This document shows positions 13,615 through 40,555 of a stretch of DNA of 64,000 nucleotides, one piece after another. How positions within the stretch are numbered: the stretch's first letter is position 1; each line of letters opens with the position of its first letter. A model generated the notes under the pieces. That model was not told the DNA's origin. It saw nothing but the letters and a program-made list of their open reading frames with translations, and did not search any database. The translations under genes were made by a program, and so were the position numbers. Origin of the DNA: Balneola sp. (GTDB taxonomy: Bacteria > Bacteroidota > Rhodothermia > Balneolales > Balneolaceae); NCBI GenBank assembly GCA_002696035.1, contig NZQV01000019.1, forward strand, positions 1 through 64,000, given 5' to 3'.

Positions 13615-14292
13615 TCACTTTTCATCTTCATCAGAAATCTCATAAACAAATTTATAACACACTTTCGCCCACCACTTAAAGTGTTCTTCTTTACCCGTTT
13701 CGTGATAATAGTTCAGCTTACTTAAAAACTTTCCTTTGTCTTGCAGGTTCTTCCAGTCAATAAACTTCCCGTAAGCGAGTAAATAGAGGTTTACGAATAG
13801 GCGGGCAATTCTCCCATTACCATCATAAAACGGATGCGTGAAAACGAATTTCTGGTAGAATCTAAGGGCATTATCTACCGGGGCCTCACTTTGAAGATTC
13901 ATTAAATGCTTGAAGGCTTCTCTCAGGTCATTTTGAATATTCTCAGGCCTGGAGCCGGTAAATCTTGGCTTTAATTCTTGGCGTTTTTGTCCACCAAAAT
14001 AAACGGAGCCGGAACCATCATGATCAGAACTTCTAAATTCTCCGTTAATTGATATTATTTCTTTGAAAATCAGTGTGTGAAACGATTTACAAAATCCAAT
14101 ATATCCATCAATTGAAGGCACTCCTTCTTTCTTTATCAATTGATTTACGAAGTAAGGGATCAGCTGGTTATCTAAGGCATCAAAACGAGTACGGGCTAAT
14201 CTGTTCGCTTCTTCAACATCATCAATTGAGTACTCAGCGGGAAAGAGTTCGATTAGCTCCCGTAGCTGCTCTAATTCAGCACTATCACTCAA
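13615..14292 (-). CDS. fic: Fic/Doc-family toxin
   Basis: This 225-residue protein carries the canonical Fic active site HPFYDGNGRIAR, with catalytic H153 and R161/R164. Fic enzymes transfer AMP or another nucleotide moiety onto hydroxyl groups of target proteins. The full motif implies activity. I do not see the usual autoinhibitory (S/T)xxxE(G/N) helix, which fits inhibition by a separate antitoxin. The start codon lies 2 bases after the stop of the Panacea gene, so the two are translated together as a toxin-antitoxin operon. The substrate cannot be told from sequence. Confidence 0.88.
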   Translation of the reverse strand: MSDSAELEQLRELIELFPAEYSIDDVEEANRLARTRFDALDNQLIPYFVNQLIKKEGVPSIDGYIGFCKSFHTLIFKEIISINGEFRSSDHDGSGSVYFGGQKRQELKPRFTGSRPENIQNDLREAFKHLMNLQSEAPVDNALRFYQKFVFTHPFYDGNGRIARLFVNLYLLAYGKFIDWKNLQDKGKFLSKLNYYHETGKEEHFKWWAKVCYKFVYEISDEDEK

Positions 14293-14294
14293 TG

Positions 14295-14903
14295 TTAATA
14301 GATTTGATTTACAAGGAATTTATAGTCTTCAGAAGCTTTTGAGAATAGATTTTTGTATTCCTCAATAGAATCAAACATTACTTCGGCAGCTTTATCGGTT
14401 TTATCCATATCGAAAACAAATGCATAATGCGAAATTGTATTGGGGGGATAGTAACCGTGAGTCTTGTTTAAAGGAAAGTTCTTTGCAAAGGACTCATGCG
14501 TGTAATAATCCAGAATATCTTGGTCGGTAATTCTTCCGCTTACTTCTTTCTTATTAATCCAGGGATCTTCCGCATGTGTCGCTTTAGATAACGTGATGGC
14601 GTTGTAAAATCCATAGCTGTCTAATACAAAGTCCACCACTTCCTTCTCATCATCAGTGAAGGGTAAGTAGCTTGGAGTATCTTCAATGGGATTGTTTTTG
14701 TACCCTTTATACTGATGGTAGATGGAAGGATTTACCGGACCATGTTTCCAGGCAAAAAAGGCATCGGAAGATTTGATCATCTTCTTATCAGCAACTAGTG
14801 TCCATACTTTTACATAGTAGAGAAGCTTTTGGAGCTTCATCGGGGTTATTTCTCCCGGATACTTATTAAGGATGTAAGATGCTATGTTATGTAAAGAATG
14901 CAT
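14295..14903 (-). CDS. Panacea-domain (SocA/DUF4065-like) antitoxin
   Basis: This 202-residue protein has the Panacea layout: an N-terminal helical part with the motif MKLQKLLYYV, then FFAWKHGPVNPSIY, a signature of this family. Panacea domains are antitoxins known to neutralise many unrelated toxins, and SocA is a proteolytic adaptor from the same family. As first gene of a two-gene operon with Fic it most likely neutralises Fic and may control the promoter at 14904-15008. The last 50 residues, beyond the usual domain, may give toxin specificity. Confidence 0.85.
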   Translation of the reverse strand: MHSLHNIASYILNKYPGEITPMKLQKLLYYVKVWTLVADKKMIKSSDAFFAWKHGPVNPSIYHQYKGYKNNPIEDTPSYLPFTDDEKEVVDFVLDSYGFYNAITLSKATHAEDPWINKKEVSGRITDQDILDYYTHESFAKNFPLNKTHGYYPPNTISHYAFVFDMDKTDKAAEVMFDSIEEYKNLFSKASEDYKFLVNQIY

Positions 14904-16129: not shown

Positions 16130-16363
16130 CTATTTTTTGAATTTAAACCACAGGAAGCCGACTCCAAGGGCAATGGCAGCCGCTTTGTACTTCATGGGCA
16201 CTTCACCGTTGATGTATTTCTTGGCGGTATCCACCAAATCCATTTTGGTGTTTTCGGCTTCGGCGTTTTTCACGTCCGCAACGGGAGAAGAGCCGATACC
16301 GGCTCCGTTGCATCCGCAGCCGCATCCAAGTCCGGCGTCAGAGGTATAGCTTGATTTACTCAT
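16130..16363 (-). CDS. Small cysteine-rich protein with C-terminal membrane anchor
   Basis: This 77-residue protein has a short CGCGC cluster (residues 14-18) near the N-terminus, a polar middle, and one transmembrane helix (about 58-73, AAAIALGVGFLWF) followed by a lysine tail. It has the same tail-anchor layout as nine other proteins in this element. The cysteines could bind a metal or form disulfides, but no family was recognised. It lies between the peptidase and a proline-rich tail-anchored protein. Confidence 0.55.
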   Translation of the reverse strand: MSKSSYTSDAGLGCGCGCNGAGIGSSPVADVKNAEAENTKMDLVDTAKKYINGEVPMKYKAAAIALGVGFLWFKFKK

Positions 16364-16379
16364 GTCTCAGTTTTTAAGG

Positions 16380-16766
16380 TTAGCGTAAAATTTTGAAGAG
16401 AATTCCGGCTCCGACAATACCCGCACCAGCCATAACCATCATTTTTTTGCTGATCGACGGTTTCTGGGTAGCCACAGGCTCACTTTTTGTCGTAGTCGGG
16501 TTTGTGGCCTCTTTGGGCTTATCGGCCAGATCACGAATGACCGGTGTTACTTTGGGTGGTTTGATTTTAGGAAGCCTCGGGAGAATCGGTCTCCTGACTC
16601 TGGAAGATGGCCCTGGAGCAATGGAGATAGTGGGCCGTATTCTGCCAATGGAAGAGACCGGCTGGATAGCGGTATTTAATTCAGTAGGTAAAGTTGGGTC
16701 GAGCATCATATTTCCCAAACCGGGAGAACTTTCCTCGCTGTAGATGTATCCGGAAGATGATTTCAT
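16380..16766 (-). CDS. Proline-rich protein with C-terminal membrane anchor
   Basis: This 128-residue protein has a disordered, proline- and arginine-rich middle (residues 40-75, repeated RP, RLP and KPP), a threonine/serine stretch, and one transmembrane helix at about 107-124 with a Leu-Arg end. It could span a distance in the virion, from internal membrane to capsid shell, as proline-rich minor proteins do in other membrane-containing viruses. That role is inference from topology and neighbourhood; no homolog was recognised. Confidence 0.55.
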   Translation of the reverse strand: MKSSSGYIYSEESSPGLGNMMLDPTLPTELNTAIQPVSSIGRIRPTISIAPGPSSRVRRPILPRLPKIKPPKVTPVIRDLADKPKEATNPTTTKSEPVATQKPSISKKMMVMAGAGIVGAGILFKILR

Positions 16767-16772
16767 AGTGGG

Positions 16773-17327
16773 TTATTGAGTGTTAAAGATTTGATAGGAA
16801 ATAAATCCTGTGATGATGAGGGGCACCAGTACCATACTTGCCGTGGACGCTTTGGAAATTCCCATGACCGATTCCACGATTTCTTTTCTCTGGAGTACAT
16901 CAGAAGCGTAATTTTGCCCGGTAGTAACCAGATTCGGATCAATGCCGGCACTAATGGTATTTCTGACTTTAGTGTATCCCGCGTTATACGCCGCCACAGC
17001 CGGAGTGAGCTTGCCGCCAAACTTGCCGATCAGATCTGCCAGAAACTTGCTGCCATAGTGGATGTTGGCGCGGTGATCGTTGTTGGCATGGGAGCTGGTG
17101 AAGCCCGAATGATACCGACGGTCAATTTGCATGATGCCAATGCCGTTGCCATTGTCGCCCGTCCAGTTGCCATCAAGGGCCAGTCCCATGTGACTTTCCC
17201 TGGAGGCGATGGCCAAAAGCAGGGAAACCGGCACGTTATGTAGCTGAGAAGCCTCATAGAAGTGCCCCATGATGCCTTTCACCCGAAGGTAGCTGAGCTG
17301 GGAGGATATGGACAGCGCGCTGCTCAC
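16773..17327 (-). CDS. Goose-type lysozyme / lytic transglycosylase with C-terminal membrane anchor
   Basis: This 184-residue protein shows the GH23 fold: ASRES with catalytic E44, then GIGIMQID (62-69) and AYNAG (113-117). It cuts the glycan strand of peptidoglycan. A single transmembrane helix at about 162-180 anchors it at the C-terminus with the enzyme facing one side, unlike free endolysins. In membrane-containing phages such anchored enzymes sit in the virion and open the cell wall for DNA entry. Its start directly abuts the stop of the large fibre-like protein gene. Confidence 0.82.
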   Translation of the reverse strand: MSSALSISSQLSYLRVKGIMGHFYEASQLHNVPVSLLLAIASRESHMGLALDGNWTGDNGNGIGIMQIDRRYHSGFTSSHANNDHRANIHYGSKFLADLIGKFGGKLTPAVAAYNAGYTKVRNTISAGIDPNLVTTGQNYASDVLQRKEIVESVMGISKASTASMVLVPLIITGFISYQIFNTQ

Positions 17328-19752: not shown

Positions 19753-20529
19753 TTACTCCGCTGGGCTGAATCCGGTTTTGGCCTGCACATAGCTCTCGCA
19801 AAGGAAACTTACCTCGGCTGGCTGGGCTCCGTAGTTGGAAGCGTACACGTCAAAGGGTACGTTTGATCCCACCACAAAAGGCACATTGATGTACTTGTCG
19901 TTGAACTCGTCGTTCACCTGCTCCAGGAACACTTCATCGCGAACGGTGGTATTGTACACTTTCATCGAGGCGGTAATGGCTCCGGGCTGGTTGCTGCTCA
20001 TGGCCATGCGCCGAACCTGCACGTCCACGCTTTTGCTTTTCACGCCCAGATCAATGTTGAGCCCGCCTGCTGGAACCGTGCCATGCCCGTACAAAAACCG
20101 CGGTACGGGTACCGAAGCGCCAATTTTCTGGTAGGCTGCGCTGAGTTTGGCAAGAGCAAACTGGTCATAACCTATTAGCTGAATGTTGACAATTTGCTTG
20201 ACGGCGTCGGTGTTTTTCAGCTCAAAAACAATGTGGTTGTTCTTCTGGATGATGAACGGGGCAAACAGCCCGTCAATGGATTTGAACAGGTGATGTACCA
20301 CCGTGAGCTGGATATCGCGAAACAGGTACAGATCCTCGTTCAGGCGCGCGGAAATAAGAATTTTATGCATGTTCGGGCTGAACGGTAGAATCTTACGGAT
20401 GCCAAAACGCTCTCCACCCATACCGTTCATGGTCAGGTGAGCCGTCGCTCCGGGTTGCACCTCGACCGATTTGGCCGGATTGTAGGCCGAACTTTCTTTA
20501 GGAGGTAAAAAATTGGATATGATCTTCAT
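19753..20529 (-). CDS. Candidate major capsid protein, possible double jelly roll
   Basis: This 258-residue, almost all-beta protein has no membrane helix or signal peptide. It seems to consist of two halves of similar length (about 22-130 and 150-255), each rich in alternating hydrophobic strands and each ending in a polar-hydrophobic strand (IVNIQLIGYD and AEVSFLCESY). The size is close to the double-jelly-roll capsid protein of membrane-containing phage PM2. That comparison is by length and architecture, not by sequence similarity. It lies in the run of structural genes beside a second beta-rich protein. Confidence 0.45.
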   Translation of the reverse strand: MKIISNFLPPKESSAYNPAKSVEVQPGATAHLTMNGMGGERFGIRKILPFSPNMHKILISARLNEDLYLFRDIQLTVVHHLFKSIDGLFAPFIIQKNNHIVFELKNTDAVKQIVNIQLIGYDQFALAKLSAAYQKIGASVPVPRFLYGHGTVPAGGLNIDLGVKSKSVDVQVRRMAMSSNQPGAITASMKVYNTTVRDEVFLEQVNDEFNDKYINVPFVVGSNVPFDVYASNYGAQPAEVSFLCESYVQAKTGFSPAE

Positions 20530-20609: not shown

Positions 20610-21221
20610 TTACTCAACTTCTGCCACTACCAGGGAAGCTCGCAGCCAAAGCTGGCCTTGCCCTGATTGCGTCCAGTTTTCGGACGTTGGAAAAACAGAG
20701 GCGTCATCAAAGTGCACGGCAAGAGAAACCGTTTGATTGATGGCCAAATCGAACGGATCAGCCAGACGGTATTCACTGGCAGATTTCATGGTAACCAAGC
20801 GACGGTATTCGGCTACGGCGTCCACGGTGTTATTGGTGGCAGAGGTATACTGAATACCGGTTCCCGAGAAGTTGGAAAACTCACTCATGGGAGCACGCAG
20901 GAATTCCTTGTTGTCGTTGTCGGCCTGAAGTAGTATGGCGGCGTCTTTCAGCCCGTTGACAATGGCACGGGCATCGATACCGTTTGCGGCATCGTCTTCG
21001 ATGAACTGTTTGGTAAGCTCAAAGGAAAGACCCAGAATTCGGCGTTTCATAGCACCGGGAAACGGGTTACTTACATAATTGTCCCGCGTGAGTATTCGAT
21101 CTGCATTAGCAGGAAAGAAATTTAGGACAGATTGGTTTTGCTGAACCTTGCGCGTATCAAAATAGGTTTTGATGCGAGCGGTAGCTGGAACAAGTGCTTT
21201 TTTAGAGATTTTATTGCTCAT
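20610..21221 (-). CDS. Second candidate capsid protein, jelly-roll-like
   Basis: This 203-residue protein has an N-terminal basic segment (KISKKALVPATARIK), a middle helix, and a beta-rich C-terminal half with DPFDLAINQTVSLAVHF and LWLRASLVVAEV strands, as in virus jelly rolls. With the neighbouring 258-residue protein it could make a two-component shell, as in viruses with paired capsid proteins, or one of the two could be the penton. No homolog was recognised. It is separated from the next gene by 80 bases, more than is usual in this operon, perhaps for extra expression. Confidence 0.42.
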   Translation of the reverse strand: MSNKISKKALVPATARIKTYFDTRKVQQNQSVLNFFPANADRILTRDNYVSNPFPGAMKRRILGLSFELTKQFIEDDAANGIDARAIVNGLKDAAILLQADNDNKEFLRAPMSEFSNFSGTGIQYTSATNNTVDAVAEYRRLVTMKSASEYRLADPFDLAINQTVSLAVHFDDASVFPTSENWTQSGQGQLWLRASLVVAEVE

Positions 21222-21312: not shown

Positions 21313-21816
21313 TTAAACTTCGATGGTGTTGTCTTCCTCCAACGATGTTTCAACTTCATCAACGTGGTGTGTTTTCTCCTGTATTTCAGGTAGTCTATCA
21401 TACACGTAGCTGGATCCATCCATCAGGCCTTGCTGGGGAGTCCAGTCGGGCATGACAAATTTGATCATTTCCATTACGCCTTGCACGCCCATACCCATGG
21501 CCAGCCCACGAAGATGTTTGTTCTTGGTCACAAGGGTTAGGAGCACGCCGGCGGTAAGGGGAATGCCCGCTCGGGTAGCCTGTTGAATGGTAGCAGAGGC
21601 GTTGCCTGTCAGCATGGGGACGGCCAGAGCATTCACCTGCGCTGCTACAGCTTGCCCACCAAGAATGTATCCGGCGGTGATCGCCTGCTGCTTGAATTCA
21701 GATACCGCTTTCTCGGTAGTTATTTTGCTTTCTTTTGCCATATTACTGCGTCGTTTGTTTGGGTTTTCGATAATTTGTAGCTCGGAAGGATTTTTGGCGA
21801 ACACTCGCTCTATCAT
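21313..21816 (-). CDS. Membrane protein of the virus-like element
   Basis: This 167-residue protein has two hydrophobic stretches near residues 47-66 and 84-122 (including GIPLTAGVLLTLV and LAMGMGVQGVMEMI) and an acidic C-terminal tail. I keep the ATG at 21816, 28 bases after the polyvalent gene; another ATG at 21741 would remove 25 residues rich in KNPSEL and ENPNKRRSN. It probably resides in the virion or host membrane. No family was recognised. Confidence 0.5.
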   Translation of the reverse strand: MIERVFAKNPSELQIIENPNKRRSNMAKESKITTEKAVSEFKQQAITAGYILGGQAVAAQVNALAVPMLTGNASATIQQATRAGIPLTAGVLLTLVTKNKHLRGLAMGMGVQGVMEMIKFVMPDWTPQQGLMDGSSYVYDRLPEIQEKTHHVDEVETSLEEDNTIEV

Positions 21817-21844: not shown

Positions 21845-24800
21845 TCAGTTAAGAATGCCCCTGCCGTCTATGTTGACGTTTGCGATGATATAGACATCAC
21901 CGTATTTGAATACCGGTCGCTTTCCCGCATCGAAGTAATGGAAATAGTGGTTCGCTTTGCCTTTTTCGTCATCGGCGTAGATCACCTTATCACTTACATA
22001 CATAATGCGGTCGGCGTAACCGGCACTGAGCAGTTTCTCACCCGATGGTGGAAACAGCTCATAATCGTAATCGTCAGCCGGGAAGTGATGAAACTCCTCA
22101 AACATCTCGGCTGCTTCTTCATTGTTGAATGTGCTTTTTGACAGTCGCATGAGCTTGGTCGGGAATATAAAAATGGTCGTTCCCTTTGCATTTATAATCA
22201 TGGCCAGATCGTCCTTTTCAGCTTCCATGCGCTGCATGTAGCCCTTGGCATCGATATACTCAAGGTCTTTGACGATGCCGGAATACACCAGCGGTTCTTC
22301 GTACAGCGTTTTTAATATGCCATGCCGTTTGGTGCTTTTTGCAGGCACATTGTCGGCTTTGTTTTCCCGAAGCTGTGGTGCACTTTTCGGGGCATTGCCT
22401 TTGAGCGATCCCACATCACGCACGGTGATGGTTTTGCGGATCTTGTAGGTCGGGGCGATGCGGTTGATCTCCTCATAAAGTTCGTTTCGATCATCGTAGC
22501 TTACCGCTACCAGCTGGTTGACCACATCATTGAGTTCAATGACCGTTTTCTGGTTTTTCTCAAGAGATCCTTTGGCCGCTTCAAGTTCGGCCTTGGTAGA
22601 GGCCAGCACCCGTTGAAGTTCAGCCAGTGTTTTCTCGGTTTGTTTTAGCTCACTTTTTAACAGCTCCATCCGGCTTTCAGCGGTGCGAATCCATGCGTTT
22701 TCAAGGGCCAGAAATATTTCAGCCAGCTTTCGAGTGATGATGGGCTGCCATTTTTTGAGGGTGAACATCCCGATGGATTCTTTGAGCGCTTTAAAACTTT
22801 GCTCGTTGCCCGCCTCATCTTTTTTGGCTTTCTCGGACTCAAAGTCGATGCCATACTCAGCGTAAAAATCTTCTTCGCTGGCAATGATATTGCCAAGGTT
22901 GCCGGAAATGGATTTACCTTGCCCGGTTTTTTCTTCCAGCGTCCATCCGAACGACTCGCCCAGCTCTTTGGAGGCCATACGTTTGATCGAACTCCACGTC
23001 TGCTTATTGTAAAACGAGCGGTCGGGAGTGTTGCTGTCGGGGATCAGGTGAAACCACACCCGTCCGTTGGCGTTGTTTTCAGGCACATCAAGCACAGTTT
23101 TCATGCGGTAACCGGAGATACGTTTAGCGTCTGAGCTTAGCTCAATATCAAGCTGGTACGGCTCTCCATTCCAGCCGTACTGCACCTGAAACAGGTTGTC
23201 CTGGAGGACTTTTTCAGCGGTGGCTGGTAGCTTGGAAGCTTGCAGGGCGGATTCCCGCTGGACCACATTTTTCATGCGCTGCTGCTTCTGTTCAATATCG
23301 GTGGCAGCCTGCGCCTGACTCGCCTCCAGCCGCTGCACCTCGGATTTCAGATTGCTGATCCGGTCATCGAGCACGTTCTTCTGGGCCAAGGCTTCAAAGA
23401 ACTCTTTGACTCTCGGATCGGAGTTGGTAGCAGCTACCATCTGCTCGTATTCCAGCGATTCGGAGTCGCCGCCCGTGTCCACTTCTCTGCCGGTTCCAAA
23501 GAACAGGTCATCAATCCAGCTCTGCTTTTTGGAGACCAGTTCCAGCCGGTACTGATCAAAGGAGTCCTGCATGAGGTAATAATGAATGGTTACTTCCCCA
23601 TACTGATTACCCTGACGCAGCCCACGGCCATTGCGCTGTTGGATTTGAGAAGGCGTATATGGAACATCCATGTGGTGCATGTCGGTCGTCCACTTTTGAA
23701 GGTTCATGCCTTCGGCAATGGACTGATTGCCAATGACCACCCGGTATTTTCCCTGGTTAAAATCGTCTTGCACTTCTTTCTTTAACGCTTCTTTATCGTC
23801 CTTACTGCTTACCAGATAGTCATCCCCATTTTTTCGGGTTCCAATGATGGAGCCGTTGATAATGGCAATCTGCTCTTTAGGGATACCAGCCTTCACCAGT
23901 TCAGATTTGATAAGCTGATGGAAGCTTCCCCCTTCAGAGTTATGAAGACTAATCCAGTCGCAGAAAATGATCTGGTTGCGAATAGCAGGACTGCCCGGAT
24001 TGGAGCGACTGGCTTTGATCTGCTCCCACTGCTCGTTTAATTTTTGGGCGCGTTGGGTAGCTTCTTTTTCAGTGCCAAAAATGCCTTCACTCCAGGTGTG
24101 TTCGGGTTTTTTAGCCTCCAGAATATGCAGCGGTTCATAAATTTCGGTCTTCTCATCCCACACCACCCAGTAGCCGTCTTTTTCTTTTACCACCCCTTTA
24201 CTGGTTATGACCTCGATATGAGATGGGTTTGATCTCAGGTGTGGAGGCGAGCCAGCTGTCCGGTCTCTACCGTGCCGGTTAAAAAAGTCGCCGTACAGAT
24301 CTTCTGAAGCCATTTCGGGAGACGGATTGGATCGCGCCCCGTAGGAAGCGGCTACATTTTCCACCATCGCTCCAAGCTTGAGGTACGAGCGGTCGATGCC
24401 CTCAAAGTCTTTGTCGTACACCCGCAGGTCGGTGGCAATCTTACTACCATCGCCGGTTATCACAAGGAAATTATCCTTGGTTTCACATTGCCGGTCTTTC
24501 ATGCAGGCAATCACATCGTTGGCCCGCAGGATGATATCATCAAAGAGAAGCTTGTGCAGCTCGCTGGGTTCAATAATGACATTTCGGGAGCTCGCCTTGG
24601 GGCGCTTGAATTTCGGCTCCAGTACTTTTGGTTTGCCATCTTTGCCCTTGAGCGTCTTTCCGTTTTCGTCCTGAATGTAGTCGGGATGTTCTTTGTAGAA
24701 CCCGATAAGCTGGTCATAGCTTTTAATGTCCATGAGCTCATCGACAATCTTGCGCATTTCAGGCAGGTTGTAATACCCGGCCACCACTCGCTCCGAGCGG

Positions 24801-27800
24801 TATTCCCCGTTGGTCTTTTTGACGATCTTTTCTTCTTCCCTCACAAACAGGTTGATGAAGTTATCGAGGTTTTCAATTTCGTACTTAGCGAGCAGATCCG
24901 GAGCGCACAGGTTCAGCATGTGCCACACTTCGACCGGGGAGTTTACTACCGGGGTCGCCGTTAGCACAAACACGTTTTTATGGCCCACTTTGCTAAACAG
25001 CCAACGTGTTTTTTGCAGGGCGTCTTCAGCTCGCTGGGAAGGTTTGTTCGCCGAAATTCCAAATTTGGCCGCTTTAGCCGAACCGAGGGCGTTTTTGTAG
25101 AAATGGGCCTCGTCAAAAAACAGGCAGTCCACGCCCAGCTTGTCAAAGAAAATATCGGTTTCAAGGCGTTTAGTGTGGGCCACATTGCGAAGCTTGGTTT
25201 CCCATTCTTCCATCTGCTTTTCCATGCGTTTCATCATCGACGTTTTGGCCGCCTTTGATATGGCCTGATCTTCTTCAAGCAGGTCTTCAAAGTTCTCCAG
25301 CATTTCGTTGAAGTAGTCGATCCGCTCCTGATAAATACGAGCCTGCTCTGCCGGTGAAAGTGGCAGTGATTTAAAAGCATGGTCGGCAATAAAAATGGCG
25401 TCCCAGTTATAAAGCTGGGCCATCGTAAGTTCTTTGTGTTTGTCGCCCCCGCTCATTTTCATGTTAAGCACTTTGGCGTCGGGGAACAGCATCAGGTATT
25501 CTTCCACCCATTTTTCCTGCACCTTTCCGGGCACAACAAACATCGGCTTTCTGGCGGCTCCCTGCTGGAGGAGCACCTGCGAGGTGATAATGGAAGCGAG
25601 TGTTTTTCCGGCTCCCACATCGTGGCAGTTGGCCCCTTTACCGTTCCACACAAGCTTTTCGGCAATGGCGCGGTTGTGCTTGTACACGGTGAAATCCTTC
25701 ACCCCGTAAAAGGTATCGCTCATGCCACGAACCCGTAGCGTGCGCCCGTCAAAAGGCGGGTTAATGACGGCGTTATAGGTCTGGTTGTAGGCGGTTTCGA
25801 TGAGCGAGCGCACTTCTTGAGAAGCTTTGGTGCGCACCCAGTTGTTAAACTTTTTGGGCACGTGCGTGAGCATCCGGTTGTTGTTCTGTCGCTGAATTTT
25901 TCGCGCCCGTTCAATAAGCATTTGCCCCCGTTCGCCTTTCATAGACTGCGCTTCTTTGAGCGTCATACTTGGCATCAGGATATCATCCTCATCATAGAAT
26001 TTGAGCGGAAACGTGCTGTCCTGAATGTAGGAGTTGATGATCTTCGTGAACGGCGTCTCGCCCCAGCCAAGGTTGATATCGTCTTGGGTTTCATCGCCCG
26101 CTGAAACATACCGGCCCCATTTTCGGAGCTTCATATAGAACCGGTTACCCAGATCGGCCTTGTCTTTGACCAGGCCAATTTCCACCCGGTCGTAATTCAT
26201 TTCGTCTTTAATCCATTCTTCAATGGCTTTGGCGGGCAGGTAGGTGAAAATGTGTTGGGGATCAACGGTAATGTTGTACACGTCAATCCATTCGGGCACC
26301 ACTTCTTCGAGTGCCTTGATGTTTTTCTCGAGCTCATTTTCCTGAGCCAATTGAAGCTTTTCCCGAACATTACCCGCTAAATACTGATAGCGGAATTCGT
26401 GCGTTTCGGTGGCCGGATTCCAGTAGAAATCGGGGTGAGAATCGAGGGCTTTTTCAAGCTCATCTTTGGTGGCCGTGCCGCCTTTATACACCGACTGGTA
26501 AAAGTCCATATCCAGCGTCTCGCCAATGCTTCTGCCAAACATAGCCAGCTCAGCGAGATCGTCCGAATCTTTAACGGCGGGCACATAGTTCCGGTTAAAC
26601 ATCGAGTCCGCATCAATAATATCAGCGTGCACCAGCTCTCCATTAATCGGATCACGTTTTACCAGCGTGGTAAGTTTGTACAGGTTGTTATCGAATTTGA
26701 ATACTTTTCGCAGATCCTCATCTTCATCGGGAATCCCATAGGTTTCGATGTGAGTAGTCAGCAGCTCTTTAAACTCTGCCCGAAGCGCCTCTTTTTCTGG
26801 CGTTTCCTGTGCCAGCGCCGTTATATAATCATCATAGGCGTCAAGCAGTTTGCAGGCCGAGGAGATACGGTTGCTGAGTCCGGAGCCGCCACCAAGGGAG
26901 AGAAGCTTATAAAATCTTCGCTGCCTCTCGTAAAATTTCCCTTCATGGAAGACGATGTTACCCGGATGATAATTCCGGGGCAGATCAAGCATAATGCCAT
27001 CATCGGGAATATTGTACAGGGGCATTTCATCCGGCAACGGGTAGGGAAAGGTGAGTCCATCAGCCAGTACTTTGTCAATAGCAGAGCTATTTAGCTGGCC
27101 TTTAACGCCCATTCGGGAATAAAACTGGACATGGTGCCCTTGAATATGCTCGCCCAACACATGCTGGGGATGCTCTTTGTAATACGGGTTATAAAAGGCG
27201 GTGTAGGTTTCCCCATTGTAGGACACCTGACTTTCGATGAGATCGTCCTGAGCAAACAGCCGGTTAAGTTTGGAATCCTGGTCTGGATGACGCTCTCCGC
27301 TGTGCTCAGCGTATTTTTGAAAAAACAGGATATCGGTGGTTACCGTGGTATCAGCGTTGTCTTTAAAAGCCGTGGAAGGAAGTCGGTAAGCGCCCACAAA
27401 TTTTGCTCGCTCTATCATGGCCTGCCGGATGGAAGGATCTTTTTTATCCATCGTTCCGGTGGAAGTGATCACGGCTAAAAACCCGCCGGGCTTTAGCGCG
27501 TCCAATGATTTCAGAATAAAATAATCGTGAATGCGTGGGCTGAGCGGTGCCAGTGGATCTCGCCCAGTATGAATCTTTAAATCACCAAAAGGCACATTAC
27601 CCACTACGCCCGTGAGGTTGTATAAGGATAAATCGGTGTCGGTAAAGTTCTCATGACGAACGGTCTGCATCGGGTATAGTAGGCTTGCAATACGGGAGCT
27701 AATGGCCGAACGCTCAACCATAACCATGCGGTAATTTTCGCGGTCGGGAAGAAATCCGGCAAAATTACCCACGCCCGAACCCGGCTCTAAGATATTGCCA

Positions 27801-29074
27801 CGGGTAACACCCATTTTTTGGAGTTTATCCCAGATGAGTTGCACTACGGGATAGGACGTGTAATGCTCGTTAAGGAGTCCCCGTTTGGTCTGTTCTGTGG
27901 ACTCTGTGTAGCCAAGGCCACCGGCACCGGTGTAAGAGCGGAGGACTTCAATGTCAGATTGGGTAATCGCCCGGTCTTCTTTTTGGAGCACGGCAATAGC
28001 TGCTTCATTGGCTTTTCGTCGTTCCGACGCCGTAAGTTTAATGGGCGCATATCCCGAAAGATCAATATCGGTAAACCCAAAGGTTGACCGGGATGACTCT
28101 TTTTTGGGCTGCTTGGCGGGCTCCGGTTGTTTGGTCGAGGCGCTGTTAAACACCCCATCAAAATCGACGCCAATAATCTGCCCGTGTGCCCTGAATAGCC
28201 CAAGCGCTTCCTCTTTGTATTCGGCGGGAAATTTGTCCAGCTGAAACGCTAAGGCCAGTTTGCCAATGGTTTGCTCAAAATCATTCCGCAGTTGCTGAAG
28301 TTCTCCACCTGGATTAGATCGAACCGTTAGCTGCTTCTCAAGATCATCAAGATTGGTTAGATACGGTTCCAGTTTTTTTGCCGATTCGGAATCGCCTTTG
28401 TCGGCCTCCCATGCGAGTTGAGTAAGCTGTTCCAGCAGCGCTCCGTTAAGCTGCCCCACTTTATACGGGTGGTGCGAGGCCGCCGAGATCATGGACATGC
28501 GTTTGGTCTTCACCTGAATCTCGACCGGAAACTCTTCGTCCACGATGAGTATAAAATGATGTGCTCGGTAGCCGTTGGCAGGGTTTTCGTACTTGTTTTC
28601 ATGCTCCCACACCTCACCAAGGGTGCCTGATTGAATGCGCTCAACAATGGTATCTACCTGCGCTTGAGTCTCCACAATAGCCATGCAACCGGCTACATCG
28701 GTCAGACCCGTGGTATATTTTTCTCCGGCTTTGGTGGCGATCTTTTCGGTGAAGGGAAACCGCTTGCGAATGAGTTTACCAAGGGTGGAATACACTTCCT
28801 TGATGCGCCCTTTTACGACCAGCGCCAGATTCATCTGTATGAGGCCGTTCATGACGCTTTTCAAGGCCGGAACGTACCGGTTTTTGGTTTCAATCACGGA
28901 CTCAATTTGTGGAGCCAGCTCGGCTTCGGAAACCGGGGAGGTATCTCCCGGAGTCAGCGGATTGGGATCGTCGATGTTGACAATCCCATCGGAGTCCCAA
29001 TCGCCCAGCCAGTGATCAAAGTCGTCTTTGGCGATGTAGGAAATCTGGTCGATATTTGTTTTCGTGATCGGCAT
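21845..29074 (-). CDS. Polyvalent protein: RelA/SpoT synthetase + DarB-like DNA methylase + SNF2 helicase
   Basis: This protein has 2409 residues. Residues 25-44 hold a DSDGIVNIDDPNP calcium-loop-like motif. Residues 85-205 match the RelA/SpoT synthetase domain: KGRIKEVYSTLGK (88-100), TDVAG with acidic D126, ENPANGYRAHH (163-173) and VEIQVKT with E185. From about 345 a DarB-like part follows: methylase motif I LEPGSGVGNF (from 429), a motif IV-like NVPFGD (493), Walker A GAGKT (1154-1158), DEAH (1321-1324), LTATPVVNS, and the helicase end with RNGRGLRQG. A module at about 1581-1693 is inserted in the helicase part, and a coiled coil is present near 1930-2180. DarB-type proteins are injected with phage or element DNA to protect it from restriction. 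The RelA/SpoT part could make alarmone-like nucleotides; its product is unknown. Confidence 0.85.
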   Translation of the reverse strand: MPITKTNIDQISYIAKDDFDHWLGDWDSDGIVNIDDPNPLTPGDTSPVSEAELAPQIESVIETKNRYVPALKSVMNGLIQMNLALVVKGRIKEVYSTLGKLIRKRFPFTEKIATKAGEKYTTGLTDVAGCMAIVETQAQVDTIVERIQSGTLGEVWEHENKYENPANGYRAHHFILIVDEEFPVEIQVKTKRMSMISAASHHPYKVGQLNGALLEQLTQLAWEADKGDSESAKKLEPYLTNLDDLEKQLTVRSNPGGELQQLRNDFEQTIGKLALAFQLDKFPAEYKEEALGLFRAHGQIIGVDFDGVFNSASTKQPEPAKQPKKESSRSTFGFTDIDLSGYAPIKLTASERRKANEAAIAVLQKEDRAITQSDIEVLRSYTGAGGLGYTESTEQTKRGLLNEHYTSYPVVQLIWDKLQKMGVTRGNILEPGSGVGNFAGFLPDRENYRMVMVERSAISSRIASLLYPMQTVRHENFTDTDLSLYNLTGVVGNVPFGDLKIHTGRDPLAPLSPRIHDYFILKSLDALKPGGFLAVITSTGTMDKKDPSIRQAMIERAKFVGAYRLPSTAFKDNADTTVTTDILFFQKYAEHSGERHPDQDSKLNRLFAQDDLIESQVSYNGETYTAFYNPYYKEHPQHVLGEHIQGHHVQFYSRMGVKGQLNSSAIDKVLADGLTFPYPLPDEMPLYNIPDDGIMLDLPRNYHPGNIVFHEGKFYERQRRFYKLLSLGGGSGLSNRISSACKLLDAYDDYITALAQETPEKEALRAEFKELLTTHIETYGIPDEDEDLRKVFKFDNNLYKLTTLVKRDPINGELVHADIIDADSMFNRNYVPAVKDSDDLAELAMFGRSIGETLDMDFYQSVYKGGTATKDELEKALDSHPDFYWNPATETHEFRYQYLAGNVREKLQLAQENELEKNIKALEEVVPEWIDVYNITVDPQHIFTYLPAKAIEEWIKDEMNYDRVEIGLVKDKADLGNRFYMKLRKWGRYVSAGDETQDDINLGWGETPFTKIINSYIQDSTFPLKFYDEDDILMPSMTLKEAQSMKGERGQMLIERARKIQRQNNNRMLTHVPKKFNNWVRTKASQEVRSLIETAYNQTYNAVINPPFDGRTLRVRGMSDTFYGVKDFTVYKHNRAIAEKLVWNGKGANCHDVGAGKTLASIITSQVLLQQGAARKPMFVVPGKVQEKWVEEYLMLFPDAKVLNMKMSGGDKHKELTMAQLYNWDAIFIADHAFKSLPLSPAEQARIYQERIDYFNEMLENFEDLLEEDQAISKAAKTSMMKRMEKQMEEWETKLRNVAHTKRLETDIFFDKLGVDCLFFDEAHFYKNALGSAKAAKFGISANKPSQRAEDALQKTRWLFSKVGHKNVFVLTATPVVNSPVEVWHMLNLCAPDLLAKYEIENLDNFINLFVREEEKIVKKTNGEYRSERVVAGYYNLPEMRKIVDELMDIKSYDQLIGFYKEHPDYIQDENGKTLKGKDGKPKVLEPKFKRPKASSRNVIIEPSELHKLLFDDIILRANDVIACMKDRQCETKDNFLVITGDGSKIATDLRVYDKDFEGIDRSYLKLGAMVENVAASYGARSNPSPEMASEDLYGDFFNRHGRDRTAGSPPHLRSNPSHIEVITSKGVVKEKDGYWVVWDEKTEIYEPLHILEAKKPEHTWSEGIFGTEKEATQRAQKLNEQWEQIKASRSNPGSPAIRNQIIFCDWISLHNSEGGSFHQLIKSELVKAGIPKEQIAIINGSIIGTRKNGDDYLVSSKDDKEALKKEVQDDFNQGKYRVVIGNQSIAEGMNLQKWTTDMHHMDVPYTPSQIQQRNGRGLRQGNQYGEVTIHYYLMQDSFDQYRLELVSKKQSWIDDLFFGTGREVDTGGDSESLEYEQMVAATNSDPRVKEFFEALAQKNVLDDRISNLKSEVQRLEASQAQAATDIEQKQQRMKNVVQRESALQASKLPATAEKVLQDNLFQVQYGWNGEPYQLDIELSSDAKRISGYRMKTVLDVPENNANGRVWFHLIPDSNTPDRSFYNKQTWSSIKRMASKELGESFGWTLEEKTGQGKSISGNLGNIIASEEDFYAEYGIDFESEKAKKDEAGNEQSFKALKESIGMFTLKKWQPIITRKLAEIFLALENAWIRTAESRMELLKSELKQTEKTLAELQRVLASTKAELEAAKGSLEKNQKTVIELNDVVNQLVAVSYDDRNELYEEINRIAPTYKIRKTITVRDVGSLKGNAPKSAPQLRENKADNVPAKSTKRHGILKTLYEEPLVYSGIVKDLEYIDAKGYMQRMEAEKDDLAMIINAKGTTIFIFPTKLMRLSKSTFNNEEAAEMFEEFHHFPADDYDYELFPPSGEKLLSAGYADRIMYVSDKVIYADDEKGKANHYFHYFDAGKRPVFKYGDVYIIANVNIDGRGILN

Positions 29075-29078
29075 AGGG

Positions 29079-30485
29079 TTAGCTTAGTACTTTCTCTAAA
29101 AAGGCGTCGAGTTTAGCCCGGCTTTTTCGGGCTGCTTCCAGATCAACCGCTGGCTTACGCTTCCTAGACGTTCCTTTTTTATGTTGAACCTTCTTTTTGG
29201 CCTTGGTTTTGGGTGCAGATTTCTTGGGGGATGCCGCTTTCGACTTTTTAGCCGGAGCCTTCTTCTTTTTGGCTGGTAGGCAATCCGGTTTGTAACCTTG
29301 CAGCCTTTCTTGCTTCCGGTACTCGCGAGCGCCCAATACTTTTTTAGCATGATCCTGGGCAAGAATCTGAACTTCTAAATCTCCATGCTTTTTAACGAGC
29401 TGAGCCCACGAAGCTTTGAAACCACCTTTTACCCCTTCGGTGCAGATCTGGGTTTTAAGCTCACCGTCAATGAGTAGCTCAACGATGTACCGCTTATTCA
29501 AATAATCCGGTACGTATCGAATGCTGAGGGTGGCCCGTTCGGATTCCCCGGAATGCTGTTTGGCGTAGCACGGCATTTTGGAGCCGAGCAGGGAATTCAC
29601 TCTCTTCCACGAGCGGAGTTTATGAAGCTTGTCGATTTGCTTAAGCGAAATCGTAAAGGGCAGCTCGACGGGATTTTCTCGGGGTTCAGTATGTTTGGGA
29701 TTCATTAAATAGGTTCCTCTTTTTGAGACCCAATGTTCGGCTTGCTGACTGGTGAGACCAATTTCATGCTGAAAGAATTGAATAAGTTCCTTGTCCGTTG
29801 AGGTTTCGTTATTTGAAAGCTGATCTTCCACCATCTCATGTTGATGCTTCGATAGGGCAGTGGGGGTCTTGACTGGTATAGTATTACCAGAAGTGCCGAA
29901 GGGTACGTCGATGGCATTTAAGATCTGGTACCGGTTTTTTTCGGTCTCGGCCAGTCCCTCTTTGGTGACTTTGATTTCTATATCACACTCATGGGCGATG
30001 CTGGTGTTGCCTTTGTACTTGCCGTCCTTGGTTGCGTGGGCCACCATAATGAATCCAATACCTTGCTCACGACACCACTGGGCAAGTTCCACCGTGGACG
30101 CGTCCTTGGCGTCAATAACAGAAATGGAATCCAACACGCAGAAGGCTGACCTGTTTTTTAGCAGGGTTTCTTTGAGTCTGGTCAAAGATTTCCACTTAGT
30201 GAAATTGAGGTTCGCGTGGGTAGCATTAAGGCGTTTTACGCGATCTATGAGTGTCTTTCCGAAGTGCTCTTCAGCGGGGATGTATTCCACTCTCCCGTGT
30301 TGGGCTAGCGCATTGGCTAAGCCTAAACTAAAGGTGGATTTTCCGGCTCCTTTCTCACCCCATATAAAGATTACAGCATTTTTTTCCGGTTCACCTAATA
30401 GCGTTCCATAAGGTTGGGCAATCTTGATGCCTTTGATATTTATTTTTGCAAGCTCTATGGCGCTCATGGTGTTTGGGTTATCCAT
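29079..30485 (-). CDS. RadA/RecA-like ATPase with histone-like lysine tail
   Basis: This 468-residue protein has Walker A GEKGAGKS (43-50), Walker B ending VLDS (117-120), HATKDG (150-155) and KNRY (183-186). The last two correspond to the H-x-TKxG and KNRFG motifs of RadA, the bacterial branch-migration helicase, but the RadA zinc finger and Lon-like domain are absent. Residues about 265-400 form an unrecognised alpha/beta domain, and about 405-450 is a lysine/alanine/proline tail resembling histone H1. It probably acts on viral DNA in recombination, condensation or packaging. It lies directly upstream of the polyvalent gene. Confidence 0.7.
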   Translation of the reverse strand: MDNPNTMSAIELAKINIKGIKIAQPYGTLLGEPEKNAVIFIWGEKGAGKSTFSLGLANALAQHGRVEYIPAEEHFGKTLIDRVKRLNATHANLNFTKWKSLTRLKETLLKNRSAFCVLDSISVIDAKDASTVELAQWCREQGIGFIMVAHATKDGKYKGNTSIAHECDIEIKVTKEGLAETEKNRYQILNAIDVPFGTSGNTIPVKTPTALSKHQHEMVEDQLSNNETSTDKELIQFFQHEIGLTSQQAEHWVSKRGTYLMNPKHTEPRENPVELPFTISLKQIDKLHKLRSWKRVNSLLGSKMPCYAKQHSGESERATLSIRYVPDYLNKRYIVELLIDGELKTQICTEGVKGGFKASWAQLVKKHGDLEVQILAQDHAKKVLGAREYRKQERLQGYKPDCLPAKKKKAPAKKSKAASPKKSAPKTKAKKKVQHKKGTSRKRKPAVDLEAARKSRAKLDAFLEKVLS

Positions 30486-30807
30486 TTAAGCGGCTCCTCA
30501 TTTTTTTGGAGATTACAAGTAAAGCTCCAATGGCAATACCTGTCAGAATAGTTTTTGTTAGTATGGTTGATTTGTTTGCTTTCATACCACTTGGGGTAAT
30601 AGAGATGCCCAGTTTTGAAAGCAACTGCTTGTCTGCTTCACCGGTTGCCGGAAGCGAAAGCCATCGCTGAGCCTGTAGAACGGCTGATTGAGTTTCGGGA
30701 CCGAACTTGCCATCAATACCATATTCAGGCAACGGAATGCCCATTTCTTGCAATCTTACCTGTAGTTGTATGACCAACTGGCCTGAATCACCATTTCTGA
30801 GTATCAT
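30478..30807 (-). CDS. Peptidoglycan-binding protein with C-terminal membrane anchor
   Basis: This 109-residue protein has a peptidoglycan-binding type 1 domain over residues 4-67: GDSGQLVIQLQVRL, GIDGKFGPETQSAV and the usual three-helix spacing. A linker leads to one transmembrane helix at about 85-101 and a basic end (KKMRSRLNG). There is no catalytic domain. In this element it would hold the virion or its internal membrane to the cell wall during entry, perhaps positioning the anchored lysozyme. It overlaps the RadA-like gene by 8 bases. Confidence 0.72.
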   Translation of the reverse strand: MILRNGDSGQLVIQLQVRLQEMGIPLPEYGIDGKFGPETQSAVLQAQRWLSLPATGEADKQLLSKLGISITPSGMKANKSTILTKTILTGIAIGALLVISKKMRSRLNG

Positions 30808-31199
30808 TTTTTTGTTGATGAGTTATAAGTTCGATGTGCAAGAACCCCAATTGTGATACCGATCAGAAGCGAAGAGCCATATTTTATCAAAGAAGATTTG
30901 GTTGAGCCTGACAATGGCTCATCAGAAGTAAGTTTCTCTGACAGGGCTACCAAATCTACATACTCGAAATAGGCGTCAATGACCGAAGCGTTCTGTTCAT
31001 ATATTCCATTGATGCCTGCTTTACTCGTAGTCAGATTGGCCAGGTTAAGACCCATAGTAGCAAGCTGACCCCGGCGACCGCTGGTGGCATTCTGGAGCTT
31101 ACCTGCAAATACTTTGAAAGCATTCTGCGAAGTGCGCTTTAGGTAGTCGTCCATGCCCTGCAGGGTGGAGCTGCTATGTGATGCAAATTCAGATCTCAT
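30804..31199 (-). CDS. Tail-anchored protein of the virus-like element
   Basis: This 131-residue, mainly helical protein has one C-terminal transmembrane helix (about 105-121, YGSSLLIGITIGVLA) followed by a short basic tail. Start and stop both overlap neighbours by 4 bases, so it is translationally coupled. No family was recognised. A virion membrane protein is the most likely role given the series of seven such genes from 30.5 to 33.9 kb. Confidence 0.5.
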   Translation of the reverse strand: MRSEFASHSSSTLQGMDDYLKRTSQNAFKVFAGKLQNATSGRRGQLATMGLNLANLTTSKAGINGIYEQNASVIDAYFEYVDLVALSEKLTSDEPLSGSTKSSLIKYGSSLLIGITIGVLAHRTYNSSTKK

Positions 31200-31879
31200 T
31201 TCTTAGCTCCTTTAGGGGCAATCGCTTTAATGCCTGCACGAAGACCGGGAAGTATGGGAGCTATATAGATCAGACCTGCACTAATTCCACCTAAAATAAG
31301 TACACGCTTAAGAAATGTATTTACATTGCTGAGTGTAGAACCCGGATTGAAATCGGGCATCTTATACCACGACTCGGTAGGTGGGGAATATACCCCGGAC
31401 TGCTGTCCGGTTTGCTGATCAAGATCGAGGGATATGGGTGCGGATTTTTCAATAAGATCCGTTGGTGACAGCTTGTGCAAATCAACATCATCGGGGTACA
31501 CTTCAAAAATCACCTTGTGGCCCGAGGTGGGAACAAACGAGCGGTCAAAAATCAATCGTTCCTGGGCGCGGCAGTTATCCATCATTGCGGTATTGAAACG
31601 CTGGAAGCCTAACACCGATCCGGTCTGCCCCGAGCGAACTACTACAAGGGCATCAGGGCACTGTCCCCAGTTGGTCATAAAGGGCACAAACAGGACCTTA
31701 GGCCAATTTCGGAAGGTTTCGATTTCAAGGTCGAGGGAAAACGGAACCCCACTTTTGGGATTTCCGGAAGCGGGATTTCGCCCGATAATTCGAAGTTCTA
31801 CTGCCTCCGAACTGATGATGTTGCTGGACAAGTTGAGCTGCCCGAGTCCGCTGTTGATATATCCTGATTGCGCGTTCAT
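31196..31879 (-). CDS. Beta-rich tail-anchored protein of the virus-like element
   Basis: This 227-residue protein has an N-terminal beta-rich domain of about 150 residues (strands such as KVLFVPFMTNWG and HKVIFEVYP), a linker rich in Ser/Thr/Pro, a transmembrane helix at about 188-207, and a basic tail ending KGAKK. The single cysteine pair (C103, C121 region) could form a disulfide. Ectodomain plus anchor suggests a minor capsid or membrane-to-shell connector. No homolog was recognised. Confidence 0.5.
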   Translation of the reverse strand: MNAQSGYINSGLGQLNLSSNIISSEAVELRIIGRNPASGNPKSGVPFSLDLEIETFRNWPKVLFVPFMTNWGQCPDALVVVRSGQTGSVLGFQRFNTAMMDNCRAQERLIFDRSFVPTSGHKVIFEVYPDDVDLHKLSPTDLIEKSAPISLDLDQQTGQQSGVYSPPTESWYKMPDFNPGSTLSNVNTFLKRVLILGGISAGLIYIAPILPGLRAGIKAIAPKGAKK

Positions 31880-31880
31880 G

Positions 31881-32150
31881 TTACCTCCGCAAAAGCCGAT
31901 AGCCCATATACAAGCTGCCGACGATTAACAAAGTGTGCTGGTTATCCCGAATCCACTGTGAAAGCGAAATAGGCTGCTCCTGAAGGCGCTGGCAAAGTTT
32001 TTTAGCCGCAGGCTCTTCGCCTTCTCCAATCTCAATAACCTGGATATCAGGCTGCTCATAGGAGGTGTCTTCTGTATCAGGTAATACCATAGGGGCATGG
32101 CCACCGGGTACACTGCCATCTAAATATTTTGAAATTCTTCCTGCCTGCAT
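31881..32150 (-). CDS. Small tail-anchored protein
   Basis: This 89-residue protein has a polar, acidic N-terminal half with a PDTEDTSYEQPD stretch, then one C-terminal hydrophobic helix (about 69-84, HTLLIVGSLYMGY) ending in arginines. It abuts its neighbours with gaps of only 1-2 bases. No family was recognised; it belongs to the tail-anchored series. Confidence 0.48.
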   Translation of the reverse strand: MQAGRISKYLDGSVPGGHAPMVLPDTEDTSYEQPDIQVIEIGEGEEPAAKKLCQRLQEQPISLSQWIRDNQHTLLIVGSLYMGYRLLRR

Positions 32151-32152
32151 AC

Positions 32153-32479
32153 TTACTTCTTGAGCATTTTGAGGAGTAAGATGCCACCGCCAATGGCGAT
32201 ACCAGCAATGCTGGCATACTTGATCATGTCACCGGAACCAGTGGAGGAAGAAGCGCCTTGGCCGGGGTACAGTACCGGTGAAGCCTTAGTTCCACTGGAA
32301 TTATTGCCCCCTCTGTTAATTACACCGTCCATCGTAACAACGGTATCGGTTGCGGTTTTTAGCAAATCGCTGATCGACGTCAAGGTCGAGCCAAATTTAG
32401 TTTGGGTAGGCTGGGTATCGGTAGCCGCACGTTGGTTGAGAAAATCAAAACTGGTGTAACCGCTAGGTTGTTTGGTCAT
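32153..32479 (-). CDS. Small tail-anchored protein
   Basis: This 108-residue protein has a Ser/Thr/Gly-rich N-terminal part without clear structure, a glycine/serine linker (GQGASSSTGSG), one transmembrane helix at about 87-103 (IAGIAIGGGILLL), and a basic end. The glycine-rich helix is very similar in character to those of the 128- and 140-residue proteins of the same element. No family was recognised. Confidence 0.48.
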   Translation of the reverse strand: MTKQPSGYTSFDFLNQRAATDTQPTQTKFGSTLTSISDLLKTATDTVVTMDGVINRGGNNSSGTKASPVLYPGQGASSSTGSGDMIKYASIAGIAIGGGILLLKMLKK

Positions 32480-32492
32480 GGTATAAGCCTGT

Positions 32493-32915
32493 TTATTTGG
32501 AAGATTTCTTTCTTCGTTTGATCAATAAGAAAGTCACTGCAATGGCTCCGGTAAGTGCAACTCCGCCCACAGCGATGCCCGATTTCATGGTTGAATTAGC
32601 CGTTTTTTGATGCTGAGCGGTCGTTGTAATATTGGTTTGAAGCGCCTGCATCATTTCCTGGCGCTGGCCTTCCCACTGGGCTTTCTTTTGAAGAGATGCT
32701 TCGTGCGCTTTGCAAAGAGCCTGACTTTTCTCACGTTGACGTCGACAGCTTTTCAGCTTGCCGAACATTTTACCTTTACAGCTTTGGTTGGCGTAGCGGC
32801 ATGGGTCGGTTTCTTCCCAGTTGCCTAAGCCAGTACTGATGGAAACAGCAAAACCCGAGTCCTCTTCACCAATTACGGTGTCATTCATGGTTGGTATAAA
32901 TCCGCTTCTACTCAT
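32493..32915 (-). CDS. Four-cysteine tail-anchored protein
   Basis: This 140-residue protein has four cysteines within residues 37-69, in a helical and basic setting (CRYANQSC, then SCRR and LCKAHE), which suggests two disulfides or a metal site. A helical stalk and one transmembrane helix (about 112-131, GIAVGGVALTGAIAVTFLLI) follow, with a strongly basic tail (KRRKKSSK). It is a virion membrane protein candidate; no family was recognised. Confidence 0.5.
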   Translation of the reverse strand: MSRSGFIPTMNDTVIGEEDSGFAVSISTGLGNWEETDPCRYANQSCKGKMFGKLKSCRRQREKSQALCKAHEASLQKKAQWEGQRQEMMQALQTNITTTAQHQKTANSTMKSGIAVGGVALTGAIAVTFLLIKRRKKSSK

Positions 32916-32917
32916 AT

Positions 32918-33931
32918 CTATGGTTTTAGGAGCATGTAGCCACCACCGATCAGAACAAGCGTTCCAATGGCAAGTCCGGCATAAAGCCCCATTTTTTTGG
33001 TTTTTTTAGAAGATTGTTGCACAGTAACCCAAATCTCGGAAAGCTGACCGAACCGATTGAGCCTATGGACGGCTGGAGCACCAAGTTCATCAATGATTTG
33101 GGCGTAACGCTTAAGCATAGCATTATCCTTCTGGGAAAGACTGATCACCTCAGACTTCACTCCACGTTGCATTAAATAATCACGAAGCGCCCCACGAAGC
33201 TGACGTTCATCTTTATCCTTGGCTCCAAATTTGTTAGAGAGGGTATTCTTTAGGGTCATCCCCGTGGTGGCAATCGTTGTGGCGGTGGTCAAAAGCGTAA
33301 TCGGGTCAATGCCTAATCCTTCCGGCATGGCATTGGTTACGTGGCGGGATTTTTTGATCAGACGCTCGTCAAACACGTAGCCGGGATATTTTAACACCGT
33401 TGTGTCAAAAGACTTCCAGCCCGATGGAGAATGGTACACTGCGTAAATATGATCAAAATGCCGACCGGTTCTCGATACTATTCTGAAACCGGTTTGAATA
33501 CCTAAACTTTGCAGGAGCGCTGCCCCTAAAATGGCATGATCATCACAATCTCCGGCCCGTTGCTGAATCGTGACAAACGGAGATTGAATACGTTCCACAT
33601 CCCAAGGATCTCGAACATAATTCACGTTACGAACCATCCACTTGTATATGGCCGAGGCAATGGCGTCAATATTTCGCAGATCCGGTTGTCCGGTCAAGCG
33701 GTGCTTACGGATGGTGCTTGTAATTTTCAAAGCGAGGGAGCGAATGCGTTCATCACCGGTATACTTGGTTACGAGCCGAGAGGCAGCAGATAATACGCCA
33801 TCAACACCGGGGTAAGCCACACGCTGGGTAGAAAGTGGTACTGTGGATGCTCCCAAAGAAGCATCCACAGCCCGTGCTCTGGTGTATTGCTGCTGGGTAT
33901 CTGGTAATATGTTTACGAAGCCGCTCTGCAT
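32918..33931 (-). CDS. Transglutaminase-like cysteine protein with C-terminal membrane anchor
   Basis: This 337-residue protein has a transglutaminase-like core at residues about 90-180: RAGDCDDHAIL with C129, HIYAVYH with H161, and WKSFDTTV with D176, the full Cys-His-Asp triad. Relatives cut or form amide bonds; bacterial members are often peptidases or amidases. Residues 200-310 are helical, and a transmembrane helix lies at about 317-334. In a virion it could trim peptidoglycan peptides or mature other virion proteins. The substrate is unknown. Confidence 0.7.
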   Translation of the reverse strand: MQSGFVNILPDTQQQYTRARAVDASLGASTVPLSTQRVAYPGVDGVLSAASRLVTKYTGDERIRSLALKITSTIRKHRLTGQPDLRNIDAIASAIYKWMVRNVNYVRDPWDVERIQSPFVTIQQRAGDCDDHAILGAALLQSLGIQTGFRIVSRTGRHFDHIYAVYHSPSGWKSFDTTVLKYPGYVFDERLIKKSRHVTNAMPEGLGIDPITLLTTATTIATTGMTLKNTLSNKFGAKDKDERQLRGALRDYLMQRGVKSEVISLSQKDNAMLKRYAQIIDELGAPAVHRLNRFGQLSEIWVTVQQSSKKTKKMGLYAGLAIGTLVLIGGGYMLLKP

Positions 33932-40455: not shown

Positions 40456-40529
40456 GGATCCGTAGCTCAGTTGGTTAGAGCAGTCGACTCATAATCGATT
40501 GGTCGCAGGTTCAAGTCCTGCCGGATCCA
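40456..40529 (+). tRNA. tRNA with CAU anticodon (Met or Ile2)
   Basis: The cloverleaf is complete: acceptor GGATCCG/CGGATCC, D-arm GCTC/GAGC, anticodon stem GTCGA/TCGAT with loop CTCATAA (anticodon CAT), T-arm GCAGG/CCTGC with TTCAAGT, discriminator A. CCA is not encoded. The anticodon reads Met, or Ile (AUA) if its C is modified to lysidine. The stretch GACTCATAATCG...TGGTCGC resembles Ile2 tRNA more than elongator Met, but I cannot settle it. Confidence 0.92.
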
Positions 40530-40555
40530 CTTTTATTTTTTCTCAAAAAAATCAC

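Follow-up and report, generated by a model that had tools for sequence, protein, structure and literature searches.

The 64,000-nucleotide window analysed here, the first part of contig NZQV01000019.1 from Balneola sp. (assembly GCA_002696035.1), carries a provirus that resembles phage SSIP-1 (NC_017983) and, inside it, a gene for a protein of 2409 amino acids. The reading frame is open throughout, without a stop (Table 1). From the N terminus, the protein consists of a RelA/SpoT-like domain, a DarB-like adenine methylase, an SNF2-type helicase, a coiled region and a C-terminal module. Several unrelated conflict-type domains are joined in one giant phage protein encoded near structural genes, as in the polyvalent proteins described by Iyer et al. 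2017.

An original prediction from the letters of the sequence had placed a RelA/SpoT synthetase domain at residues 85–205. We set the domain at residues 81–206, and its motifs are all where they had been placed: KGRIKEVYSTLGK at 88–100, D126 within DVAGCM (126–131), NGYRAHH at 167–173 and E185 within VEIQVKT (184–190). The Pfam family RelA_SpoT (PF04607) matches residues 89–206 (E 1.1e-11, 45.5 bits against a cut-off of 27), so the resemblance is not due to chance. The locus was also recovered by a whole-genome search, and a profile of nine homologs found Staphylococcus aureus RelP (6ewz) in the PDB by sequence alone (E 2.8e-8). An AlphaFold2 model has a mean predicted local confidence (pLDDT) of 76.9, lowest at residues 20–49 and about 90–120. 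This model superimposes on RelP/RelQ-type synthetases with Z scores of 15–15.8 and root-mean-square deviations (rmsd) of 2.4–2.8 Å over 160–171 residues, and it also matches Rel synthetase domains. The best match is SAS2/RelP (Z 15.8, rmsd 2.5 Å, 166 residues), CapRel and Tas1 are also among the matches (Z 13.1 and 11.2), and unrelated structures reach Z 7.5 or less. The overlay on RelA/SpoT synthetases proposed with the prediction gives a matching fold rather than an unlike one. The domain has the nucleotidyltransferase fold of RelA/SpoT enzymes, keeps the metal-binding residues and is located in a phage protein.

We found this domain in 20 proteins of about 2400 residues. They come from four genera within a single bacterial family, and one of them is a second copy in the genome analysed here. 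The two main clades are 50–54% identical in the synthetase domain, and K88, R90, K92, K100, R103, K104, D126, Y169, H173, E185, Q187 and K189 are invariant in all 20 homologs. These include the stacking Tyr of GYR (Y169) and the two metal-binding acids, D126 and E185. The acids are the pair that had been expected for catalysis, and every homolog retains them. The ratio of nonsynonymous to synonymous change (dN/dS) in four within-genus pairs is 0.04–0.06 for the synthetase domain and 0.02–0.04 for the methylase, rough values because synonymous change is near saturation. The synthetase domain is under strong purifying selection. Among 394 sampled genomes of the phylum we found no additional polyvalent carrier, the nearest other matches being ordinary 245-residue synthetases and long Rel proteins. 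An IMG/VR search with the synthetase alignment found no relative, and a scan of genome contigs returned one true relative (UBA2664) and weak Gammaproteobacterial matches.

The fusion to a DarB-like methylase-helicase, the other part of the prediction, is borne out. The region of about residues 350–1900 matches phrog_10089, 'DarB-like antirestriction', with E 3.4e-171. As in P1 DarB and the phrog_10089 proteins, an EcoKI-type adenine methylase, here with the motifs LEPGSGVGNF and NVPF, is followed by an SNF2 helicase, here with GAGKT, DEAH, TATP and QQRNGRGLRQG. The motifs are intact, and those of the helicase are identical in all 20 homologs. Unlike here, no phage DarB-like protein was found with an adjoining RelA-like N terminus; identity to these proteins is only about 25–30%, and their C terminus is different. 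The RelA-DarB fusion was not found among deposited phages or plasmids. P1 DarB is located in the phage head and protects the phage's DNA in cis (PMC5512222). By homology to it, the dyad may protect DNA from type I restriction.

The carrier is related to SSIP-1. Homologs of gp34, gp40, gp44, gp45/46 and gp47, all annotated as structural in SSIP-1, occur in similar gene order, joined by the C-terminal resemblance to gp43; gp35, gp36 and gp54 also have homologs in the provirus. The DNA from about 15.0 to 40.5 kb recurs at about 75–82% identity in several further copies within the genus and in a related genome, and most copies adjoin tRNA-Met or its 5' half. A search with 14-base seeds revealed no direct repeat that would mark the two prophage ends. 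Two other copies retain only the first 43–51 bases of tRNA-Met, with no tRNA detected there, as if the element carried the 5' half of this tRNA as its attachment site. A second copy of the provirus, about 80% identical, is present in the same genome (L022/L023, contig C27 of G000).

The C-terminal module provides a link to the virion. SSIP-1 gp43 (2319 residues), annotated 'DNA methyltransferase, structural protein', is comparable in size to the 2409-residue protein and occupies the corresponding gene position among homologous neighbors. In a search limited to SSIP-1 proteins, the module aligns with gp43 at 32% identity over 103 columns (E 7e-9), and both proteins terminate in IDxRGILN. The same module ends an 1872-residue protein of another relative belonging to the same order. 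Three more proteins that end in it have a RadA-like ATPase and, after it, ArdC-N, metallopeptidase and/or DdrB-ParB domains. In IMG/VR the module recovered a single contig, whose 43788 bases equal the length of SSIP-1. A common end behind differing fronts suggests that the module serves delivery or attachment to the virion, and delivery of the 2409-residue protein by the virion is plausible by homology.

The active site departs from that of canonical enzymes. The subfamily was aligned with Rel of the host itself and with other synthetases from the phylum (three long Rel and four small synthetases in all), disregarding short unrelated frames at the foot of the alignment. All seven have the syn2 Arg (D-x-x-[AG]-[IV]-R), five residues past D126, which is also the mark of canonical (p)ppGpp (guanosine tetra- and pentaphosphate) synthetases of the RelA/SpoT homolog (RSH) and small alarmone synthetase (SAS) types. 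All 20 homologs have Met131 there, a replacement that the prediction had not mentioned. In small alarmone synthetases this Arg adjoins the adenine of ATP, as seen in RelQ and RelP structures. Ala171 replaces Ser of the GYRS/GYQS motif (syn3) and Lys189 replaces Arg of E-x-Q-x-R-T (syn4), both fixed in the subfamily. The domain is like RelP/RelQ and long Rel in fold and in its K/R motif, D, GYR and EIQ motifs; unlike them, it has Met, Ala and Lys at syn2, syn3 and syn4 and is embedded in a far larger protein. The sequence does not discriminate between ppGpp, ppApp and pyrophosphorylated tRNA as the product.

The reading we favor, with a probability of about 0.6, is a polyvalent protein packaged in an SSIP-1-like virion, whose dyad shields DNA and whose synthetase-like domain pushes the host to a growth stop. 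The carrier would be an SSIP-1-like tailless prophage with an internal membrane. By homology, the protein would most likely be packaged via, or together with, its C-terminal module, and would enter the cell along with the DNA. The methylase-SNF2 part would travel on the incoming DNA and modify it, giving protection from restriction. The N-terminal domain would act like a small alarmone synthetase, moving pyrophosphate from ATP to the 3'-hydroxyl of a nucleotide or nucleic acid. This would drive the host into an alarmone-like, growth-stopped state that favors the phage. Some points weigh against such a scheme. Packaging of the 2409-residue protein itself is argued by analogy, because gp43 has no RelA-like domain and its similarity to that protein is confined to the C-terminal module and a weak match in the methylase; gp43 also lacks a Pfam SNF2 match and has a ParB-N domain instead. 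With Met at syn2 and Ala at syn3, binding of ATP or of the acceptor may differ or be lost, and we know of no activity for RelA-like domains of this subfamily.

The conserved changes to Met131 (syn2), Ala171 (syn3) and Lys189 (syn4) could instead belong to a pyrophosphokinase that does not make (p)ppGpp. It would produce (p)ppApp, the adenosine counterpart, or pyrophosphorylate tRNA 3' ends, as a translation or energy poison like Apk and FaRel2/CapRel. We hold this to be a credible though less probable account, and it overlaps with our favored reading, whose acceptor stays open. The MuF-Apk2 prophage toxins are likewise phage-encoded, with an alarmone-synthetase-type effector domain altered at syn2–4; they are active and yield only (p)ppApp (PMC12226406). 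Departure at these motifs therefore need not mean inactivity. The 2409-residue protein differs from these toxins in having no MuF match and an N-terminal position of the domain. The presence of CapRel and Tas1 among the structural matches also speaks for a pyrophosphokinase of this kind. However, the changes differ from those of Apk2, which has GxN at syn3. The syn3 His (H173) is retained, as in GTP-using enzymes, and the best structural matches are RelP and RelQ. Loss of the syn2 Arg would also suit a non-catalytic nucleotide binder, one that regulates the methylase-helicase and serves to sense or sequester alarmones or ATP of the host. This is unlikely, since strongly diverged homologs all keep the two metal-binding acids and every basic residue of the donor site, which is unexpected of a dead enzyme.

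Other alternatives concern the route rather than the chemistry. Instead of arriving with the virion, the protein could be produced by the lysogen or in the course of infection, its synthetase acting to exclude other phages; anti-phage defense is known for RelA-like enzymes such as CapRel (PMC9712102). Yet the gene lies inside the structural gene cluster, its SSIP-1 counterpart is annotated structural and shares the C-terminal module, and no antitoxin-like partner is seen adjoining the gene; exclusion is quite improbable on these grounds. That the element is conjugative or a satellite, and the protein a conjugation-borne polyvalent protein, we regard as very improbable. The homologs of SSIP-1 structural gp34, gp40, gp44, gp45, gp46 and gp47, in similar order, argue for a virus, and the family matches obtained include no relaxase or type IV secretion genes.

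The giant protein also contains four R-x-N-P motifs, at residues 252, 1581, 1614 and 1690, where shuffling predicts about 0.2. The R, N and P of the three helicase-insert sites are invariant in all 20 homologs, within the least conserved region of the protein, and the cassette between the last two has no BLAST similarity between virus clades. Site 252 is kept in 19 of the 20, with RFNS in the remaining one. The motif recurs at the joints of the ATPase-fused proteins, in the linker of the ATPase itself and ahead of the gp43 C-terminal module, and it is found in SSIP-1 gp41 and gp43. A DNA-level signal was rejected, as synonymous codons vary at every site, which places the selection on the protein. 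Both a processing site and a docking motif are open as its function; cutting between helicase lobes would be odd, which calls for caution about processing. One homolog (L073, genome G078) has an extra N-terminal domain of about 105 residues that is terminated by an R-x-N-P motif, RKNP, at residue 106.

The combination had been called striking in the original prediction. The joining of a RelA-type fold to a DarB-like dyad stands, but RelA/SpoT domains had already been reported from polyvalent phage proteins, and with the same suggested role in an alarmone-like takeover, in the text of Iyer et al. 2017 (PMC5512222), where they are confined to phage-type polyvalent proteins. The Spirochaete and epsilonproteobacterial prophages treated there likewise have a RelA/SpoT-type nucleotidyltransferase as one of several domains of a giant phage protein, for which entry together with the DNA has been proposed. 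In that text the partners are PBECR, DdrB-ParB, LPD3 and MuF, with no DarB dyad named, and the lineages are other bacterial ones. Relative to this portion of the survey, the SSIP-1-like tailless carrier, the adjacency to the DarB dyad and the three fixed active-site differences at syn2–4 are new. Beyond the synthetase fusion, the common C-terminal module and the R-x-N-P motifs marking domain boundaries are new as well. If the enzyme is active, a tailless membrane phage would deliver a stress-nucleotide enzyme and DNA protection in one protein, tying phage entry to host growth arrest. Polyvalent proteins are extended to the SSIP-1-like lineage, with a virion-annotated counterpart for comparison. 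The module offers a handle for finding more effectors in phages of this type, and through the R-x-N-P joints the processing of giant polyvalent proteins becomes a testable question. Tentatively, and at some distance from what we would call probable, this lineage might load exchangeable effector cassettes into virions via the RGILN module. R-x-N-P would mark or cut the joints, and the non-canonical synthetase cassette would make a new alarmone-like product or modify RNA.

Table 1. Features of the polyvalent protein and its provirus (window coordinates), with module-sharing proteins at other loci
Feature	Coordinates	Strand	Remarks
SSIP-1-like provirus	15009–40500		approximate limits; right end at 5' half of tRNA-Met 40456–40530
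2409-residue polyvalent protein	21845–29074	(-)	RelA/SpoT-like domain, DarB-like adenine methylase, SNF2-type helicase, coiled region, C-terminal module
Calcium-loop-like D-x-D-x-D-G-type motif DWDSDGIVNIDDPNP	28958–29002	(-)	N-terminal tail, residues 25–39; calcium binding possible, judged from the pattern
RelA/SpoT-type synthetase domain	28457–28834	(-)	residues 81–206; core motifs K88–K100, D126, Y169–H173, E185–T190; Pfam PF04607, fold, invariant residues
R-x-N-P motif RSNP	28310–28321	(-)	residues 252–255; end of synthetase module
DarB-like N6-adenine methylase domain	27155–28027	(-)	about residues 350–640; phrog_11801, phrog_10089, phrog_37568, phrog_9133 and motifs
SNF2/SF2 helicase module	23375–25687	(-)	about residues 1130–1900; PF00176, PF00271; motifs kept in 20 homologs
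Variable insert between helicase lobes	23996–24334	(-)	bounded by three R-x-N-P motifs (1581, 1614, 1690)
R-x-N-P motif sites	28310–28321, 24323–24334, 24224–24235, 23996–24007	(-)	also residue 269 of ATPase 29079–30485
C-terminal module	21848–22207	(-)	last ~120 residues, terminating NIDGRGILN; common to SSIP-1 virion protein gp43
RadA/KaiC-like ATPase	29079–30485	(-)	homolog of SSIP-1 structural gp40; RENP at residue 269
Transglutaminase-like protein	32918–33931	(-)	homolog of SSIP-1 structural gp34
Homolog of SSIP-1 structural gp44	21313–21816	(-)	
Capsid protein candidate	20610–21221	(-)	homolog of SSIP-1 structural gp45 and gp46; model beta-barrel-like
Homolog of SSIP-1 structural gp47	19753–20529	(-)	
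Lytic transglycosylase (SLT)	16773–17327	(-)	homolog of SSIP-1 gp54
RGILN/RGLLN-module proteins with differing fronts	L081 9670–14037, L082 7076–10135, L083 6365–10591, L037 10392–16007		

For the ATPase next to the giant gene, an A32/FtsK-type packaging motor was considered and dropped, as its best curated family is Sms/RadA. The model of the capsid candidate matches jelly-roll capsid proteins at Z below 8, so this resemblance is consistent with a capsid role of the vertical single beta-barrel kind and goes no further; an IMG/VR search with the candidate found no relative. At 30804–32915 and 16130–16766 lie small proteins, in series, that have a hydrophobic stretch at the C terminus and in several cases S-G-[YF] at the N terminus; they are candidate membrane-inserted virion proteins. 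Beside the provirus, at 13615–14903, a Fic/Doc protein and a SocA/Panacea-domain protein form a likely toxin-antitoxin pair, and an AbiEi/AbiEii type IV toxin-antitoxin pair is located at 44311–45977.
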